Part shown: one piece after another, positions 25,051 to 35,733 of the stretch
How positions within the stretch are numbered: position 1 is the stretch's first letter
Layout: every line of letters begins with the position of its first letter
DNA from: Desulfopila aestuarii DSM 18488
GTDB taxonomy: Bacteria > Desulfobacterota > Desulfobulbia > Desulfobulbales > Desulfocapsaceae
Direction: 5' to 3'
NCBI GenBank assembly: GCA_945863875.1
Contig: CAMBBS010000001.1
Span: 1-64,000, forward strand
DNA: 64,000 nt
Program-made: the position numbers and the translations under genes
Notes under the pieces: model-generated
What the model was told of the DNA's origin: nothing
Database searches by the model: none
What the model saw: only the letters and a program-made list of their open reading frames with translations

Positions 25051-26335
25051 GGAGCAGTTCAATAATTAAATATACTTTTGGGGAGTGATAGAATAATTCC
25101 ACTCGCCATGAAAAGACTCAGGGTGATGGTTAAGTTCCTTCATTTCGACATCACTGATTTTAATCCCCCCTGGAGAGGAATTGGTGTCCAGAGTTGCTCT
25201 TGCCTTTAGGCCGGTCCTGGTCTTGGTGGCCTCAATAAGATTTACTGTCACTTCATGACTTATGAGTGGGCGGCCAAGCCAATTCAGGTTGATAGCACTG
25301 AACAATCGATGCTCTATCTTATTCCATTTACTGGTTCCTGGAGGAAAATGGCTGACCTGAATCTCCATTCCTGTTTCGTTGGCTAATTGCTGTAGTTCGG
25401 TTTTCCAAAGTCTAACCCTGGATCCGTTACTGCCACCGCTATCTGCCGTGATCATAAGCCGAGTGGCATTCGAATACCTCTGCTTACCCATCACGTGCCA
25501 CCATCTCCGAATGCTCTCGACGGCAAAGGCTGACGTATCATGATCAATGCCAACGTTCACCCAGCCTTCATTATGTTGCAAATCATAAACTCCATAAGGA
25601 GAGACCTCCCCAAGCTCTTTGTCAGCCAAATCGTGTCTCTTTACCTTGACAGGGTCGCCTTTGGAACGATATGATTTTCCGGCATTCTTGAAAAGACCGA
25701 CCAGCTCTTTCTTCCTTGTGTCCACAGAGATTACTGGCTGCCCAAGATCTTGATTGGCCTTCACGCGTTCCGAAATATATTGAAATTGCTCGTCTCGATC
25801 GACGTGAGAATCGCCTTCCAGCGTTTTTTTGTTCCCTTGCAGACTATACCCCTGCTCTGAAAGAAGGGTTCCGACTGTTACATGACCAATCTTGTGGCCT
25901 TTGCCCTGGAGTGCAGCGGCGAGGGTGCGAAGGCTTTTTGTAGTCCACAAAAGCGGAGATTCAGGATCACCCATTGTGTTATCTTCAACAAGAAGTTTCA
26001 AGTCGTTGATTAAAGTGTCGTTGCTGGTTTTAAGTGATTTTCTACCCGCCCCAACCCGCCGCAAGCGACCATCAGGGAGCGGGATGTCTCCTGTAACTTC
26101 CTGGATTCCCCTTAAAATAGCGCTCCTTGCCATTCCTGTTATTTCATGAACCGCTTTGAGCCCGCCGCGGCCAAAGGCTTTCACCTCCGAGGCAACCCAA
26201 AGCCTACGCCCTTTCTCATCAAGGTGAGGCCATATAAATCGAAAACGTGTACGTATGGGGTCAAGATTCGTTGTTGTCATCTCAAGATAATGACAGAACT
26301 GACATTAAAAGTCTAGTTTATTTTTGAACAGTCCC
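25051..26335 (-). mobile_element. ISAzo13-like insertion sequence
   Basis: A 1285-base element with imperfect terminal inverted repeats (GGAGCAGTTCAA at 25051 and TTGAACAGTCCC ending at 26335), holding one transposase gene. It lies inside the tnpB remnant of copy C. Flanking TAA and TAG may be a decayed three-base target duplication. Confidence 0.75.
25066..26280 (-). CDS. ISAzo13-family transposase
   Basis: A 404-residue intact transposase. The N-terminal part reads LDEKGRRLWVASEVKAFGRG, then a helix-turn-helix region (GGLKAVHEITGMARSAI) and the segment PLLWTTKSLRTLAAAL, all typical of ISAzo13-like proteins. A DDE-type catalytic core is suggested by VISVDTRKKELVG, LMITADSGGSNGSRV and SKWNKIEHRLFSAINLNW. 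The length matches the family and no stop or frameshift is seen, so the element may still be active. It is inserted in an already defective IS605-type copy, so it is the younger arrival at this site. Confidence 0.9.
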   Translation of the reverse strand: MTTTNLDPIRTRFRFIWPHLDEKGRRLWVASEVKAFGRGGLKAVHEITGMARSAILRGIQEVTGDIPLPDGRLRRVGAGRKSLKTSNDTLINDLKLLVEDNTMGDPESPLLWTTKSLRTLAAALQGKGHKIGHVTVGTLLSEQGYSLQGNKKTLEGDSHVDRDEQFQYISERVKANQDLGQPVISVDTRKKELVGLFKNAGKSYRSKGDPVKVKRHDLADKELGEVSPYGVYDLQHNEGWVNVGIDHDTSAFAVESIRRWWHVMGKQRYSNATRLMITADSGGSNGSRVRLWKTELQQLANETGMEIQVSHFPPGTSKWNKIEHRLFSAINLNWLGRPLISHEVTVNLIEATKTRTGLKARATLDTNSSPGGIKISDVEMKELNHHPESFHGEWNYSITPQKYI

Positions 26336-26671: not shown

Positions 26672-27937
26672 TTACAGCAGATCCATTTCCGCAAATTGAG
26701 AGTAACTCCATAGAGCGGCTCCCAGTCCTTCAGGGATAACCGCCAATTCTGCCTGCTGAATAACGATGAGATCGTTAGTTGCAGAATCAGAGGATATAAA
26801 GGAGACATGACCGTCTTGAGATACAACAATGGCAACTGCCCCTGGTTGAGCATTGGCAAAATGGGCCGCTGACTGGTGTCTGGTACCTCCCAAATCCATG
26901 AGGTTCGCCGTTGTGCCGTTGTCTCCCTCGACCGGTTTATATACGCGTATATTTGCCGGAGGAGTCTGGTTCTGGGCAGGGGTTATTTTCGCGCCAAAAC
27001 AATAGACAAATCGGTCAAAAGACATGATCAGTGCGCCATCTACGGCAGTCAGTCTGGCGATATGTTTACATTGCTGGTCTAACTGGTGGCCCAGACGTTC
27101 GAGATGCTCCCTTTCCGCAGTTGTTTTGTTCTGGGACGCTGCGCCGAAGAAATTTTTAACGGTAGTTATCAAGGAAGGCTTTTTGGTCACATCGTAATCA
27201 CTTTCAAGAAAGATTGCTCCACCGGTATAGGGGACAGGGGTATCAATCGAACGCTGCCATTCGCCATCCTCAGGTACCACCAGCAGGGTTCCTCCTCTAG
27301 CATGTGCACGCATTTGTCTTGCGGTGTTCAAGAGCGACATATAACGCATTAGATAGAGTATCCTGTCTTTCTGTTTGTCTTTTGGTGATGTTAGCTTAGG
27401 TATGATTGTTCTCATCAAAGAAGAGTGATCAATAAAAAACGCCTCATTGCCAGACAGTGCCGCAAGGCTTTTTCCTCCAAAAGTTATCAGCACACCCCCT
27501 GGTGCCATGGCTTCAACACAGAGGTTGGGGGTAAGTGTGTTGACAGAACGTGTTCTGAATCCCCAGACAACTAATTTCTCGTCTTCGTTTGGCCAGACAG
27601 AGATATCAGCCCGTGGATTTTCGAGCGCTGCACCTAATTTTACGAGGTTGTTGACATCAAAGCTGATTGGCTTGTCGAAGATGAACGTATCGAATGAGTC
27701 TTCTGCTGGACTGAGGATAATCGATATGGTCACAGAATTACCTTCGTCGGTGGCAAAGCTTGTCCATACGGCAGCGTCGATGATTTGCGAAATAAGTTGT
27801 TGCGATGGAATGAGGGAAATATTCTGGAAGAGGCTGCCAACGATTGTGGTTGACACGGTTGACGCAATCAGCAGATTGATTCGTCTTGATAATTCTTCAA
27901 TGAATCCTGGATGTAAGGTGTAGGCGGTGTGGATCAT
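26672..27937 (-). CDS. DisA-type diadenylate cyclase with N-terminal sensor region (DACNV-like)
   Basis: A 421-residue protein whose C-terminal third matches the DAC (DisA_N) fold that makes c-di-AMP from two ATP. The DGA motif appears in TAVDGALIMSFDRFVYCFGA (about residue 300). The RHxxA motif appears as GGTRHQSAAHFANAQ (about 350), followed by AVAIVVSQDGHVSFIS. About 290 residues precede it and look like the DACNV-type sensor region described for bacterial DAC proteins. No membrane helix is obvious. This differs from DisA, which has DNA-binding domains, and from membrane CdaA. It stands alone, convergent with IS copy C. c-di-AMP synthesis is likely but unproven, because some DAC-like proteins in this group are thought to be sensors or to use other nucleotides. 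Confidence 0.8.
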   Translation of the reverse strand: MIHTAYTLHPGFIEELSRRINLLIASTVSTTIVGSLFQNISLIPSQQLISQIIDAAVWTSFATDEGNSVTISIILSPAEDSFDTFIFDKPISFDVNNLVKLGAALENPRADISVWPNEDEKLVVWGFRTRSVNTLTPNLCVEAMAPGGVLITFGGKSLAALSGNEAFFIDHSSLMRTIIPKLTSPKDKQKDRILYLMRYMSLLNTARQMRAHARGGTLLVVPEDGEWQRSIDTPVPYTGGAIFLESDYDVTKKPSLITTVKNFFGAASQNKTTAEREHLERLGHQLDQQCKHIARLTAVDGALIMSFDRFVYCFGAKITPAQNQTPPANIRVYKPVEGDNGTTANLMDLGGTRHQSAAHFANAQPGAVAIVVSQDGHVSFISSDSATNDLIVIQQAELAVIPEGLGAALWSYSQFAEMDLL

Positions 27938-28351: not shown

Positions 28352-28738
28352 TTAGACGGGTTGTATCGGACCAGGATATCTGGCCACCTGTATATCGGCC
28401 GTTAGCAGTGTTATCCCCTCAACAATGGCCTGCGCGACGAGCAGGCGATCGAAGGGATCCTGGTGGATTGGCGGCAAGGTACTGATGGCTACCGCATGCT
28501 CACTGAGGATCGGCAGTTCATGGTAGCCGTTGTCCAACAGGCTACGCCGCAATACGCGTGGATCGACCTTGAAATCTTCGCGGCCCAAACCGCATTTGAT
28601 GACGATTTCCCACAAGCTGGCGACGCTGAAGAACAATTCGTTTTCAGGTTCACTCATCAGCGTCTGGGCATCCGATGGCAGATGTTCAAAGCCTTGAGCT
28701 GCCCATAGCAGCAGGTGAGTGTCCAGTAGCAGCTTCAT
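28352..28738 (-). CDS. VapC-type PIN-domain toxin
   Basis: A 128-residue PIN-domain ribonuclease, probably the toxin of a type II toxin-antitoxin pair. The acidic residues expected for metal binding are seen in LLLDTHLLLW (Asp6), SLWEIVIK (Glu near 44), DPFDRLLVAQA (Asp near 96) and LLTADIQV (Asp near 114). The gene overlaps the antitoxin by four bases (28735-28738), the usual arrangement for translational coupling. Targets in the cell cannot be told from sequence. The pair sits between a DAC gene and IS debris, as expected for a mobile addiction module. Confidence 0.9.
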   Translation of the reverse strand: MKLLLDTHLLLWAAQGFEHLPSDAQTLMSEPENELFFSVASLWEIVIKCGLGREDFKVDPRVLRRSLLDNGYHELPILSEHAVAISTLPPIHQDPFDRLLVAQAIVEGITLLTADIQVARYPGPIQPV

Positions 28739-28980
28739 ATGCCCTCTTCGAACATCTTCACAATCTCTGCTTCGGCCATCTGGTCGAAGTCATCCGGCAC
28801 GCTTATTTGTCCTGCCATAAAGCCAAACCGTTTCATCTGGGAAGGTCCCGGCGCATTGAGCGGAACAACTTTGACCAACGGCTTTCCGGCCTTGGCGATG
28901 ACGAACGGCTCACCCTTGGCGGCTTGTTCCACCAGTCGAGATAAATGGGTTTTCGCCTCGTGAATGTTGTATGTCTTCAT
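28735..28980 (-). CDS. Phd/VapB-type antitoxin
   Basis: An 81-residue antitoxin of the Phd/YefM prevent-host-death type. The N-terminal part MKTYNIHEAKTHLSRLVEQA and the stretch GEPFVIAKAGKPLVKVV are characteristic of the DNA-binding and dimer fold. The C-terminal tail, rich in acidic residues (DDFDQMAEAEIVKMFEEG), would wrap the toxin. It precedes the PIN toxin gene with a four-base overlap and would repress its own promoter, as known for the family. Confidence 0.9.
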   Translation of the reverse strand: MKTYNIHEAKTHLSRLVEQAAKGEPFVIAKAGKPLVKVVPLNAPGPSQMKRFGFMAGQISVPDDFDQMAEAEIVKMFEEGI

Positions 28981-29415: not shown

Positions 29416-30550
29416 TCCCTTTGAGCTTGGCCTCGGGCTGAATTTGGAAGTCCTTGACCGGCAGGGCAAGCGTGCCATTCATCTCCTCCCGGCAAGGGGT
29501 TTTCATCAAGAAAGTCGATCTTGCGGATGCAGTGGCCAGGCGGCTTTTCAGTGTTGAGACAATTGCGTTGGGTGCCGGCAAATCGCGGTTGGCCACGGCG
29601 CTGGGCATCAGCCGTCAGACCATCCATAACCAAATTGACATCAAGAAGCATTTCGGTCCGGAAGGGGTGATCCAGGGCGACAATCCTGAGGCGAGCAAAA
29701 GCAAGCGCCAGCAGCGCCACTTGCATCGGCCGGAGCGCAACCGTGGCAACAGGTCTGCAGAGGTTGCAAAGGTCCGGGCACAAGAGCGCCAGGAGAAGGA
29801 GGCCAAGCAAGTCAAGCTTGCCTTCTCCTTCCCCTCTGGTCAGCAGCGGGTGCAGGGGGCTGAGCAGCTCTTTTTAGAGGAGCATGATAGGGAAAAGAGG
29901 TGTTGCCCCGGGACTTTTCCGTCTATGATGACCTTGGCCAGGCAATGGAATTGGCTTGAGCTGGTGATGGGCTCTTTTGGGTCGGCCTGCAGGCTCTTCA
30001 TGGTCTTTGTCTTGATGACAGCAGGCAATATCGGTTCCAGCGAGCTGTTGAAAAATGTGCGGTCGCGCGAAGCCGGGATTGTGCTGGGGAGAAAGCGGAT
30101 TCCGTGCAGGCCTGAGGTCCGGGAGTGGTTGTACAGCGCGGCCCGGCAACGGGTGGCACGGTTTTTACTGGAGGATTTTTTCGCTGTCAGAGGCGCGGGG
30201 TTTGTCTTCAATGACAAGCACTGCGGTGTCTTTGAGGAGGAAAAGACATTCACCGTTGACTCGGAACCTGATCGGCATAATGTGACGCCCAGGCGTATCT
30301 TTGTGTGGAACAAAACCAGCAGACGCAGGGCAAGTGGACTTGCCTGGAGCGGCGGCATGGAGATGAACACGCAGGGATGTGCCACCGCGATCCTCAGCCG
30401 CCGGGGGGCGTCTGAAAACACCTTCGAGCCTCTCCATGATCGCCACCCATTCCATTATCATCCCGGTTTTAAATTGGTTGAAAACGATCTTGAGGATTAC
30501 CAATCGATCCAGCGGGTTGACGACGAGGGGAAGTGCCTGTTTGATTTTGT
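29416..30550 (+). pseudogene. large-transposase remnant (copy I)
   Basis: This is the longest remnant of the large transposase family. It shows RRLFSVETIALGAGKSRLA, a helix-turn-helix (ALGISRQTIHNQIDIKKHFG), QRRVQGAEQLFLEEHD-like sequence, NWLELVMGSFGSACRLFMVF and LEDFFAVRG. It jumps to FVFNDKHCGVFEEEKTF, HPFHYHPGFKLVEND and LEDYQSIQRVDDEGK. Parts between (a probable catalytic block) are missing. It stops at about 30550, just upstream of the DsrE-like gene. Confidence 0.7.
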
Positions 30551-30670
30551 GAAATGCTCGATAAAAAATATAATAAAAAAAAGAAACTTCTTGAACCATT
30601 TATGTTAGCATCGTTCGATGCGTATTTTTCAAAACTTTTGTTTGAGAACTTTTTTGGGGAGGTGCAGTGC

Positions 30671-30988
30671 ATGAAAATCGGCATGGTAATCTGCCAGAAT
30701 ACCCCTGAAGTCATCTGGAATGCTTTCAGACTGGCAAACATGATGCTCGAAGGAATGGACGATGTAACCATTTTCCTGAACGGACCGGCAGTGGAGTATG
30801 AGAAGTCCGACTCGGAGTACTTCCCTTTGCAAATCTTGGCAAAGACTTTCACCCTGTCGGAAGGTGTTCTACTCGCCTGAGGCAAACTGATGGACCTTCA
30901 CGGTGTGGAGGAAGGATATCATAAGCGGGGAACACAGAAGGACCTCTATACTTTGGTAAAGGAAAGCGATAGACTTCTTTCCCTGTAG
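30671..30988 (+). CDS. DsrE/DsrF-like protein, candidate selenoprotein (UGA at codon 70)
   Basis: Read through an in-frame TGA at 30878-30880, the gene encodes 105 residues of the DsrE/TusD-like small sulfur-transfer family. The start ATG is preceded by GGGGAGG. The N-terminal part MKIGMVICQNTPEVIWNAF and the middle DDVTIFLNGPAVEY fit the family fold. The stop lies in VLLA-x-GKLMDLHGVEEGY, exactly where DsrE-family proteins have a conserved cysteine (ACG). The frame after it continues to a natural end (KDLYTLVKESDRLLSL, then TAG) that resembles family C-termini. A hairpin with a GGU apical loop follows within 25 bases. Selenocysteine in a DsrE-like protein is known in related bacteria. The alternative is a simple nonsense mutation, so expression must be tested. 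Sec use also requires selABC elsewhere in the genome. Confidence 0.7.
30890..30922 (+). promoter_or_regulatory. candidate bacterial SECIS hairpin
   Basis: After the UGA at 30878-30880, CCTT at 30895-30898 can pair with AAGG at 30912-30915. CAC at 30899-30901 pairs with GTG at 30905-30907, leaving a GGU apical loop 21 bases after the UGA. Outer ATG/CAT pairs are possible. A GU in a small apical loop at this distance is what bacterial SelB elements have, but the stem is short. Confidence 0.45.
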
Positions 30989-32179: not shown

Positions 32180-32921
32180 TTGACATTCTCCCCGGCCTGA
32201 GGGCCGAGGAATCCACCAGCAGCTACGCCTGAGCAGGCGCTTCTGGGCAGTTGCCTTGGTGGATTCCTGCTGCTGGCGGCAGGACGGCACCACTCACTGC
32301 ACCGGCGAACCGGGCAGGTCCTGCCCTTTTGCTCTCTATGGCGCCAACCGGCTCGGCGTGTTCTCCGAAACCGCATGCCAACCACCTGAACCGTGTTTGT
32401 CTCTTGCGGTTTTCTTTTACGATGCGTGCACAGGCCGGACACGTCCTGCTGGTATTCTGCGGCACCACGCAGAGGAGCCAACCGCCATTCCAGGCCGGCT
32501 TGTCCTCAGGTTGCCGGCGAAACTCGAACCATCCCCGGTCAGAGAGCAGGACGCTGTTCCACCGGGGCCTGGCCCGGGCCTTCTTACCTGGTGCCTCGCT
32601 TGTTGCCGGTGCCGGTCTGGACATATCCCTTCTCTTGAAATGCTCAGCTTGCCGCGCGGTCTGAAGCGAGACAGACCAATGATCCCCCCGCCTGGACACG
32701 GTGACATTTCCTGGTGTTGCCTCGATCTCCCGGCTGTTGATAAACCGAACCCATCCTCTTTGGGGCAGGAAAACCCGGTGCCCATCCAGCTTGAAACCTT
32801 GCGGGTATCGACAGGAATCGATGCCCTGGCCTTTTTTCTTGAACCGGGGAAACCGCTGCGGATTCTTTTTATCGAGTGCCTCCTGGAGAGCCTTGTCGGG
32901 AAAGTTCATAAGGTAAAACAC
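32180..32921 (-). pseudogene. IS605-type element copy E: right end and tnpB remnant
   Basis: The right end TTGACATTCTCCCCGG starts at 32180. Minus-strand tnpB from 32921 to 32223 is open for 232 codons. It lacks the N-terminus and the central RuvC part: SREIEATPGNVTVSRRGD and HWSVSLQTARQAEH join KRRDMSRPAPATSEAPGKK. The zinc-ribbon region (RTCPACARIVKENRK, RWLACGF) is kept, but the final RuvC Asp position reads HAEPVGAI, Glu in place of Asp. No tnpA or left end is present. It abuts the end of the transfer operon. Confidence 0.75.
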
Positions 32922-32989: not shown

Positions 32990-34153
32990 TCAAAGGGTGT
33001 CCCTGTCAAACTCCTTGATTTCAAGTTCCTTGCCCTCGGAAACGATAACGGTAATCTCCTTTGCTGCCCCTACCTCTATAACCGGAGTAGCCTGCTTGGC
33101 AAGGCTCAGATAAAACTCCTGCAAACTGGCAGCCCCATCTGACAGGCCGCCGCCGATGGAATATTTTGCCACCTGACTGGAATCAATAGTGGTCGTTGTG
33201 CCGAGTGCGGAAGTGGAGTGGGTAGTGGCAGCCGATTTCAGCATGTCGCCCATGCCGCCGAAAAATCCGGCTACGATGGTTCTGGCCGTGGCCGAACCCA
33301 TTCTTGAGACCACCCGGCCTGACAAGCCGACTTTACTGTCAGAGTCTGTAACAAAACCTTTGACCTGTGTATCAATGATGGCCTTGCCCTCGTTACTGAG
33401 GCACGACAGGGACACCAGCCGTACATCTGCCCGCTCTTTATCCAGCCTGCCGACCGCTTCGGCAATGACGAAGCAACCGGCCATGTTTGCCTTGATGTCA
33501 TTTGGTAGAACCGCCGGGGTTTGAATTCTGAGCAGCAGCGGTTCCGGGTTGCTCGTTCCTTTCCCAGATGTAGAAGCGTCGAATCCGGTGAGCAGCTTCG
33601 CCTCCATAAAGGAAGGGGGCAGATAGACTGTTCTTGCTTTTTTTTTTCCATTTTGGGGTTCCAGTTCTCCTGTAGCAGTTGCCGGGTTCGACAACACACT
33701 GATTTCCCCGATCATCCTGGGTTCGGGCTTGGGATGCTGTGGTAAATTTGCCGGTCCTGTTCTTTCTGGTGAAAGTGGCCATGGCCGCCCTTCAGGTGAT
33801 GGCGTGGGGAAGTGTTGTTTTTCAGCAACCTCGTCGGCAGTGGGGAGTGCGGGAAGCAGCTGCTCAAGATTTGATTGTTCAGTTTTCTTTTGTTCCTGTG
33901 TTATTTTGTCTACGGCATCCTGGAGAGATTCAAGCTGTCGTCTCTGTTCCCGGAGCATTGTTTTTTGGATGAGGTCAGGCTCCAGCTGAATCTCCCTGGT
34001 GTTTTTCTGGCTGAAAAAACCTTCGGATGTATCAGTCTGGGATGCTTTGTAGCCGGTTGAGACCAAAACCAAAAAAATGATCCCGATGCACGACCAGATA
34101 ACGATCTTCTTCATCCTTGGTTCAAGATCATCGAATCTTTTTTTAAGACTCAT
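32990..34153 (-). CDS. traB: F-type conjugation protein TraB
   Basis: A 387-residue component of the F-type type IV secretion core, related to TrbI/VirB10. It is anchored by one N-terminal membrane helix (about 20-40, IGIIFLVLVSTGYKA). A coiled-coil region follows at about 60-100 and a proline-rich spacer at about 110-150. The C-terminal TrbI-like domain (about 190-360) spans inner and outer membranes in the family. Its start overlaps the TraK stop by four bases. It is the last transfer gene here. TraV, TraC and all later genes of the F operon are missing, and an IS605-type remnant begins 70 bases downstream. The protein itself looks complete. Confidence 0.85.
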   Translation of the reverse strand: MSLKKRFDDLEPRMKKIVIWSCIGIIFLVLVSTGYKASQTDTSEGFFSQKNTREIQLEPDLIQKTMLREQRRQLESLQDAVDKITQEQKKTEQSNLEQLLPALPTADEVAEKQHFPTPSPEGRPWPLSPERTGPANLPQHPKPEPRMIGEISVLSNPATATGELEPQNGKKKARTVYLPPSFMEAKLLTGFDASTSGKGTSNPEPLLLRIQTPAVLPNDIKANMAGCFVIAEAVGRLDKERADVRLVSLSCLSNEGKAIIDTQVKGFVTDSDSKVGLSGRVVSRMGSATARTIVAGFFGGMGDMLKSAATTHSTSALGTTTTIDSSQVAKYSIGGGLSDGAASLQEFYLSLAKQATPVIEVGAAKEITVIVSEGKELEIKEFDRDTL

Positions 34154-34887
34154 TTTTCCCGCTCCTTCTGGTCAACGACAAAAGCTTCTGTGGACTGACC
34201 GGGATGTAAACGGTGATCTTCAACGGCTATCGCAATGATCGATTCGCTGAAAGATGATGATAAAAAAACTTTTTCATCCACCTCAATTGGGTCTTGGGCG
34301 TGGGATTTGACGAGGTATTTACTCAGGCGCAATCCAACCCCGTCTACATCGACAATCTGGATGAGTTTTGCCTCCAGTCCAGGGGCAAGGGGTACTGTTC
34401 TGGTTGGCTGGCTTATCCGGTAACTGGCCGGGTAGGTGCCGTTGTAGGCTTCTCTGATGATCTGCAGGGCCTGTTTCTCCAGAGGCATTTTTTTGAAATG
34501 GTCGATGTTCTGCTTGAAAGATTCTCCTATGGGAGAAGCCAGGCGGAGGGTGACGGAGGGAATGTCGCTGGGGGTGACGAGCAGGGTATAGACAACATTG
34601 TTACAGACGACAAAAAGCTCACTTTGGCGCTCTGCATAGATAAATTCATCGCCGTCGTCCTCGATTTGAAATTTTATAAAGGCATTGTTGCCGGAAAAAT
34701 GGCCGGTCATGCCCTTTTCCTGGGAAAAAATGAGATCGTTCATCGGTCCGGGGCAAACAATGCGATTTATATCCATGTTGGACAGCTCTACAGCTGTCGG
34801 GATTTCTGCCTGGATCATGGGATCCGCCAGGCAGGTACCGATTGTCGCCGAGATCAGGGAAGCTGTTGCTGCAATGATTTTAACCAC
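34150..34887 (-). CDS. traK: F-type conjugation protein TraK
   Basis: A secreted outer-envelope part of the F-type transfer core (VirB9-like role), 245 residues from a GTG start. The GTG at 34887 is chosen because AGGAGGAAG lies just before it and the product then begins with a signal peptide (ASLISATIGTCLA). An upstream open frame without such a signal would run into TraE. It overlaps the TraE end by eight bases and the TraB start by four. Features include the central FIKFQIEDDGDEFIYAER and PGLEAKLIQIVDVDGVGLRLS stretches. The operon order A-L-E-K-B is the F order, which supports the call. Confidence 0.8.
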   Translation of the reverse strand: MVKIIAATASLISATIGTCLADPMIQAEIPTAVELSNMDINRIVCPGPMNDLIFSQEKGMTGHFSGNNAFIKFQIEDDGDEFIYAERQSELFVVCNNVVYTLLVTPSDIPSVTLRLASPIGESFKQNIDHFKKMPLEKQALQIIREAYNGTYPASYRISQPTRTVPLAPGLEAKLIQIVDVDGVGLRLSKYLVKSHAQDPIEVDEKVFLSSSFSESIIAIAVEDHRLHPGQSTEAFVVDQKEREK

Positions 34888-35455
34888 GCTCTTCCTCCTG
34901 CCTTTGGGAAAGTTTCTCTTTGAACGATACGATATAGAATTTACCGTCCTGCAAGCGATAGTTGATGAGATATGTTTTGCTTGAATTTTCCAGCAGGGTA
35001 TCGCCGGCAAACTGTTTGAGATTTCCGAAAACCTCGATAATGTTCTCATCAAGTTTGATTGTCTGCAGATAGAAAACCGAACTGACCTGGGACTCTTCAA
35101 TCCTGCTTGCCAGGGAATACCAGGCCTGCGACGCTTCCGGGTATGCCTCCGGCGCATAATAGGAAAGCAGTCCTTCAAATTGCATCCGGGCGGTCGGTGG
35201 GGAGTAGGTGGCAGCCAGATTGACAATCCTTCGGCTCAGGTCTTTTGTATAGCTGTCAGTGGGTCTCCCCTGGACAAATTCGACCGTTCCGGTCATTTGG
35301 GGCGGGATTAACACAACCCTCTGGTATTTAACCGCCCGATACACCATGAAAGAATTGAAGATCACCGCCAGAGCGAGGACAACGATGATGAATTTGAGCA
35401 ATCTGTTTTCAACGTAAAGGTTGCTGGTTTTCTGGAGAAAAATGTTTGTCTTCAT
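34880..35455 (-). CDS. traE: F-type conjugation protein TraE
   Basis: A 191-residue inner-membrane protein of the transfer core, equivalent to VirB5/TrbJ-region TraE of F. One membrane helix near residues 20-40 (LKFIIVVLALAVIFNSFMVY) is followed by a periplasmic domain with PPQMTGTVEFVQGRPTDS and YLQTIKLDENIIEVFGN. Its start overlaps TraL by four bases. The sequence stays open and matches family length, so it looks functional apart from the truncated operon around it. Confidence 0.8.
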   Translation of the reverse strand: MKTNIFLQKTSNLYVENRLLKFIIVVLALAVIFNSFMVYRAVKYQRVVLIPPQMTGTVEFVQGRPTDSYTKDLSRRIVNLAATYSPPTARMQFEGLLSYYAPEAYPEASQAWYSLASRIEESQVSSVFYLQTIKLDENIIEVFGNLKQFAGDTLLENSSKTYLINYRLQDGKFYIVSFKEKLSQRQEEERG

Positions 35456-35733
35456 TCATGAAACTCCCGTTGAAAATATTCGGGATAATTCTTCATCTGG
35501 ATAAAACCGAACATGTAGAGGATATGTTTTAGAAAGCCCCGGGCCTTTAATCTCTTGGTGCGGCTATAAAAAAATTGAGTCACCAGAAAGACGGGCCACA
35601 TGATCTTGCCGTAGATCAGGGCCAGCGTGAGAGTGAATACAAAGAGGATTAATTCATCCGTCTCAAACCAGAGCACCTGGATCGGCTTTGACAGGTATTG
35701 GGGAAATCTGTGGGTGAAATTATTTTCCTTCAT
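35452..35733 (-). CDS. traL: F-type conjugation protein TraL
   Basis: A 93-residue small membrane protein needed for pilus assembly in F-type systems. It has the characteristic start THRFPQYLSKPIQVLWFE and two hydrophobic segments (ELILFVFTLTLALIYG and MWPVFLVTQFFY). It lies between TraA and TraE as in F, with a four-base overlap with TraE and about 30 bases after the pilin gene. Confidence 0.85.
   Translation of the reverse strand: MKENNFTHRFPQYLSKPIQVLWFETDELILFVFTLTLALIYGKIMWPVFLVTQFFYSRTKRLKARGFLKHILYMFGFIQMKNYPEYFQREFHE

Follow-up and report, generated by a model that had tools for sequence, protein, structure and literature searches.

The candidate gene lies on the forward strand of the window, by which we mean the whole 64,000-nucleotide stretch of DNA analyzed here. 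The frame at 30671-30988 begins with an ATG at 30671, encounters a TGA at codon 70, and then continues for 35 sense codons to a TAG (Table 1). Read with the standard code, the open frame stops at 30880 and gives a product of 69 residues. The observation of this frame in an earlier note on the same DNA is confirmed, and its interpretation of the gene as a selenoprotein is supported by the results described below. We consider it highly likely that the gene encodes a selenoprotein of the DsrE fold with Sec at residue 70. The assignment of the UGA as a Sec codon draws on evidence derived from sequence: the UGA is conserved, the C-terminus is constrained, the hairpin covaries, Cys homologues exist, and the predicted fold is that of DsrE.

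Table 1. Features of the candidate selenoprotein gene, with positions in the window
Feature	Position	Strand	Basis
Gene for a DsrE-like selenoprotein of 105 aa (residue 70 predicted as Sec), including the stop codon	30671..30988	+	TGA-read-through translation
Shine-Dalgarno-like GGGGAGGTG, 6 nt 5' of the ATG	30656..30664	+	sequence reading alone
In-frame UGA, predicted Sec codon 70	30878..30880	+	shares its alignment column with the Cys that is invariant in homologues with Cys
SECIS-like hairpin, 7-bp stem, loop GGU at 30902-30904	30895..30911	+	fold, pair counts (38 and 55 sequences), synonymous-recoding control

A scan of contigs from named genomes gave eight loci, including those of Desulfosarcina cetonica and D. 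alkanivorans, and the TGA is found at the same codon in all eight. The search of the order (257 genomes) gave matches in 62 genomes, the best 41 rows of which (40 genomes, the own genome included, identity at least 56%) contain one TGA each and no other stop. Seven of these 41 rows (G222, G046, G062, G060, G110, G240, and the second of G098) are absent from the first locus set. The aligned loci of the same branch, which are also 41 in number, comprise 7 from the named-genome scan and 34 others, with the own gene included and with L022 and L038 representing one contig. Every one of them has TGA as codon 70, and the relatives in this branch are 55-76% identical to the window protein. A partial locus (L023), which has the TGA too, is excluded from the family counts. 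The class-wide search covered no genomes beyond the 257 of the order, and its sole addition is a weak match without an internal stop (G138).

The proposal of the earlier note that the frame continues past the TGA into a genuine C-terminus is borne out by the TGA of the 41 loci and by the conservation of the C-terminus in the relatives. Among 40 sequences, pairs differ on average by 0.246, 0.161, and 0.569 at the first, second, and third codon positions before the TGA, and by 0.242, 0.182, and 0.549 after it. By this measure, the codon positions are constrained alike on both sides of the TGA. As to the integrity of the frame in close relatives, it is intact in all 41 aligned loci, but damaged copies do exist, one of them in the genus mate G144, where the copy contains both a TGA and a TAG and has lost its start. 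Elsewhere, L146 has a frameshift at the Sec site, and in L158 a TAG follows soon after the TGA. A separate case is L142 (G370), an otherwise open copy with the Sec TGA in which a TAG replaces Trp16; a nonsense mutation or a sequencing error would account for this codon, pyrrolysine being less likely.

The position of the TGA at a conserved Cys, as suggested in the earlier note, agrees with the alignment to DsrE-like proteins, and homologues with Cys at the UGA column were found (L143, L062, and L063). The first of these comes from a sample of the phylum, in which 74 of 395 genomes match; the loci read from this sample include a second branch with UGKC and this one Cys homologue (from G399), which is 54% identical and has ACGKC at the Sec site. 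The further-off relatives that were read comprise eight UGxC selenoprotein candidates and two Cys proteins with ACGTC, L062 and L063. The distant rows without a stop that were read are these two together with L143 and L146. The plasmid search gave 5 records, every one a haloarchaeal DsrE protein, at 34-36% identity.

The AlphaFold2 model of the window protein (30 aligned rows, Cys written for Sec) has a mean pLDDT of 97.4, and in the predicted structure the strand composed of residues 66-70 ends at residue 70. The four best rows of the Foldseek search against the PDB, which belong to three entries, are DsrE/DsrF-like, with E values of 1.6e-5 to 9.1e-5, TM scores by query of 0.73-0.76, and rmsd values of 4-7 Å. 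The profile of the wider family, in turn, retrieves YchN (PDB 1jx7) at E 4.7e-6. On the basis of these models, the window protein is predicted to have the DsrE fold, with Sec at the conserved Cys column. The same fold is found, by profile or by Foldseek, in YchN, in the DsrE/DsrF-like entries 3pnx, 3mc3, and 2qs7, and in BT1422 (2fb6, of unknown function). The Foldseek PDB rows are 9-18% identical to the window protein, and their listings mention no Sec.

Of the 20 branch members compared with family models, 11 match PF02635 with E values of at most 0.01, the best value being 1.1e-4, and none matches an NCBIfam model. The window protein itself has no match to any family of Pfam or NCBIfam, even with the threshold relaxed to E 1. 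The YedF model is matched by none of the 20 branch members and by 7 of the 30 sequences in the wider alignment A2, from which L069, L073, L074, and L076 are left out, having no hit at the search cut-off. In the own genome, the two PF02635 matches both lie outside the window contig.

The earlier note had placed a hairpin with a GGU loop 21 bases downstream of the TGA. The hairpin and its loop are present, but it is the loop, not the stem, that begins at this distance, the stem beginning 14 bases after the TGA. Over 38 sequences of the same branch, the hairpin is 98.5% paired, as compared to at most 61% when it is slid. Two pairs change on both sides, a number reached by 139 of 500 shuffles, while the two-sided cells number 11, which none of the 500 shuffles reach. 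Nine of these 11 cells are located at one pair and may reflect a single event. When the second branch is added (55 sequences), pairing amounts to 98.2%, as compared to at most 58.7% for the slid versions, and two-sided changes are found at 6 of the 7 pairs and in 23 cells, each of these numbers being reached by 0 of 500 shuffles, in which the relatedness among the sequences is not preserved. This wider alignment uses 18 of the 24 loci L135-L158, leaving out L136, L140, and L141 (repeats), L143 (Cys), L146 (frameshift), and L158 (TAG soon after the TGA). At one of the pairs, Leu/Glu, Ile/Asp, and Val/Asp codons switch together, giving C-G, A-U, and G-C, respectively; L151 and L152, with Val and Glu, break this pair. 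The first G of the loop is invariant in the 55 sequences.

In the synonymous-recoding control, for which the 30-nt stretch was picked around the hairpin, 4.7% of 300 recodings of the window gene fold equally well, and the hairpin in the window sequence alone is only moderately unusual. Over 40 sequences, the median of this value is 2%, and it is below 5% in 32 of the 40; in L046 it amounts to 67%, and the hairpin there is nothing special. A recoding control at the level of the alignment, whose null came out at zero energy, is kept out of the evidence. The Cys homologue L143 retains a similar hairpin, which means that the hairpin is not exclusive to the Sec forms. Perhaps L143 switched from Sec to Cys recently; alternatively, something other than Sec insertion may preserve the sequence.

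It is also important to consider the machinery for Sec insertion, for which the earlier note proposed a search of the genome. The own genome has selA (618 bits), selB (353 bits), and selD (367 and 357 bits), all above the cut-off, whereas selC with the UCA anticodon was not found in the assembly. The two selD genes, located at C30:41797-42723 and C4:18059-18988, each contain one in-frame TGA. No tRNA-Sec(UCA) was detected in the own assembly (98.5% complete) by the Rfam model, with which 150 of 475 candidates were scored, and a pattern search of the assembly allowing up to 3 mismatches gave no match, which is the chief reservation about the Sec reading. Within the genus, tRNA-Sec(UCA) was found in 12 of 15 genomes. 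It is missing from G142 (56% complete), from G141 (89% complete), where a partial hit abuts the end of a contig, and from the own genome. Since 12 of the 15 carry it, we read its absence here as an assembly gap and infer that the UCA tRNA-Sec is present in the cell. However, the own genome is the only member of the genus at least 90% complete that has no tRNA-Sec(UCA), so a real loss is possible.

The surroundings of selC were compared on this account within the genus, where an acyltransferase-like gene adjoins selC at 12 of 12 loci and glyQ at 8 of 12 (1.5 kb flanks, names by profile). The own glyQ (C64:5010-5882) adjoins an ORF similar to alpha-amylase or trehalose enzymes on unbroken sequence, with no tRNA in 9 kb, and a search of the own genome for the acyltransferase-like gene gave nothing below E 1e-3. 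The piece carrying selC is therefore either absent from the assembly or located elsewhere, and a gap and a loss are not distinguished by these data.

If the tRNA-Sec has been lost, for example, the TGA could be a true stop here, in which case the gene would be truncated or a pseudogene and the downstream similarity a relic. The failure to find a UCA tRNA-Sec in the assembly, the broken copy of the genus mate G144, and the mobile elements close to the gene would be in line with such a scenario. However, all 41 aligned loci have retained the TGA, and their C-terminal frame is intact and constrained to the same degree as the N-terminal part. In addition, the hairpin covaries, and in the own genome selA and selB are accompanied by two selD genes that themselves contain a TGA in frame. 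Together, these results make a truncated gene very improbable.

The only Rfam match over the cut-off in the own genome is a tRNA-Sec-like gene with the Cys anticodon GCA at C30:43537-43626 (L024:1501-1590, minus strand). It sits near selD and a YedF gene (L082:4841-5449, 206 bits), and GCA tRNAs with similar flanks are present in G144 (L101) and G148 (L102), in addition to a UCA tRNA-Sec. A GCA anticodon does not pair with UGA. The C30 tRNA resembles the selC* tRNA-Cys, as that is described in PMC7609411, and according to the same source an opal selC* tRNA-Cys with SelB* and CysRS* occurs in Desulfobacterales. One could thus envision that a tRNA-Sec-like tRNA-Cys of this type, together with a second SelB, reads the UGA as Cys instead of Sec. 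Given the GCA anticodon of the C30 gene, the presence of a UCA tRNA-Sec in addition to such a GCA tRNA in G144 and G148, and the result that 1 of 11 SelB-profile matches passes the cut-off and 0 of 11 lie on contig C30, this scenario is extremely improbable. The same contig contains a read-through ORF with six TGAs (L082:6142-7647, minus strand), in which the stretch ...CGSGGCGCUSH presumably resembles HesB-like selenoproteins.

With Sec as the preferred reading of the UGA, residues 70-73 of the window protein are UGKL, that is, the UxxC motif is absent and its partner Cys is replaced by Leu. The motif of the 41 branch loci is UGKL in 30, UGKC in 9, USKL in 1, and UGKI in 1, and the partner Cys is missing in 32 of the 41, the window protein included. 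Besides the Sec column, no Cys is invariant in the branch, and L035, L036, L037, and L038 (the last equal to L022) have no Cys at all. Because the partner is Leu, the Sec may work alone, and the 32 members without the partner, together with the four lacking any Cys, suggest that it may be a lone carrier of sulfur or selenium in the manner of DsrE-Cys78.

In the mechanism that we propose, Sec70, the only conserved chalcogen residue, would be inserted at the UGA by SelA, SelB, and SelD via the hairpin starting 14 nt downstream. It would then act alone, carrying a sulfane sulfur (or selenium) atom, and would hand this atom to an acceptor, for instance a DsrC-like protein. In Allochromatium vinosum, DsrE-Cys78 is described as transferring sulfur to DsrC in this way (PMC3397948). 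The protein would be reset by the thioredoxin system. The relay step from Sec70 to the acceptor is close to an even guess, leaning slightly against. The broader proposal, that this Cys-poor DsrE branch is a single-selenium carrier handing sulfur (or selenium) to DsrC-like proteins and thereby links selenocysteine to the sulfur relay, is speculative and rather unlikely in this specific form.

The genes next to the relatives offer some guidance. In 8 of the 41 loci a DsrC-like gene is found just upstream, and an equal number of loci have SelB downstream, in both cases all from one genus; the one DsrC-like gene that was profile-tested (L045) contains two DsrC stretches. TrxB is a neighbor in 3 of the 41 loci, and in L016 a NifS/IscS-like desulfurase lies directly upstream, an aminotransferase-V ORF whose nearest model is NifS at 467.9 bits, below the NifS cut-off of 530.75. 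One representative of each neighbor type was profile-tested, the remainder being assigned by BLAST clustering. Since most loci reach 1.5 kb per side, absent neighbors elsewhere mean little. We have also considered a conserved gene neighborhood as a guide to function, but this guide is weak, with the DsrC-like and SelB genes coming from one genus and TrxB from 3 of 41 loci. The neighbors in some relatives support sulfur or redox traffic, without specifying the exact reaction, and are compatible with a lone Sec carrier but no proof of it.

An alternative function, compatible with the assignment of Sec, is thiol-disulfide or peroxidase-like redox chemistry in place of a sulfur relay. Here, the TrxB neighbors of three loci and the UxxC pair kept in 9 of the 41 members and in related branches have to be set against the 32 members in which the partner Cys is missing, the four distinct members without any Cys, and the DsrE fold with the DsrC neighbors of one genus, which point to sulfur transfer. 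On balance, redox chemistry is tenable but somewhat doubtful.

DsrE-like selenoproteins (PF02635, UxxC) are listed from the Sargasso Sea and from Desulfovibrio vulgaris (PMC1088965, PMC1794560, PMC13188914), and the statement of the earlier note that such proteins have been reported in deltaproteobacteria is correct for the latter organism (PMC1794560, PMC13188914). As described in these sources, the known protein shares with the window protein the DsrE family, the Sec at the conserved Cys column, a SECIS-like hairpin, and the occurrence in deltaproteobacteria, but it has UxxC where the window protein has UGKL. Relative to the eight UGxC members from the order, which probably represent the known type, the window protein shows 29-41% identity. 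It is very probable that the window gene is of this known kind, a DsrE-like selenoprotein, in a branch that is mostly without the partner Cys. DsrE of DsrEFH and TusD of TusBCD, likened here by their description (PMC3397948), likewise use a single reactive sulfur-carrying residue, which in their case is Cys rather than Sec. A further similar entry, "DsrE 1" from the selenoproteome of the Global Ocean Sampling (PMC2398784), is listed without a Pfam domain and without a Cys homologue, but as UxxC, unlike the window protein.

In the literature searched on DsrE selenoproteins, as far as the accessible text of these sources extends, no report of the UGKL branch was found. As judged from the sequences, what appears to be new here is a branch with no NCBIfam match (0 of 20) and mostly without the partner Cys of UxxC. 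Because the standard translation ends at residue 69 and none of the 20 members matches NCBIfam, the annotation of this branch, which spans 40 of the order's 257 genomes, is probably wrong. A DsrE protein with Sec as its only conserved reactive residue would provide a test of selenium as a carrier of sulfur atoms, for which the DsrC neighbors of one genus suggest a candidate partner.

Among the ten flanking ORFs scanned in the window, none is DsrC, NifS, or TrxB, and no DsrF or DsrH partners were recognized; the ORF just upstream (29454-30605), which is additional to these ten, has no NCBIfam match. The surroundings of the gene look like a mobile region, with conjugation genes (TraL, TraE, TraK, and TrbI-like) at 32990-35730 (minus strand), an ISAzo13-type transposase at 25066-26277, and a PIN/Phd toxin-antitoxin pair at 28352-28977. 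An ORF with a Cas12f1-like TNB domain at 32223-32918 (minus strand) is perhaps the remnant of a TnpB-type transposon.

In a tree of 65 short proteins, for which the program warns of too few columns, the window protein is placed with Desulfosarcina alkanivorans and with three MAGs labelled Desulfohalobiaceae, Desulfobacteraceae, and Desulfobacterales. This grouping (90/90, not starred) does not include the genus mate G145 or the family members G180 and G181. The tree omits L022, L040, L136, L140, L141, L142, L146, L151, and L158. This placement and the transposase, the TnpB-like piece, and the Tra genes nearby make a horizontal gain of the window gene plausible. On the same tree, UxxL needs at least two changes, so the partner Cys would have been either lost and then regained or lost repeatedly. 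Finally, an ORF at 26672-27934 (minus strand) of the window has a DACNV sensor domain and a weak match to a DisA-type cyclase.
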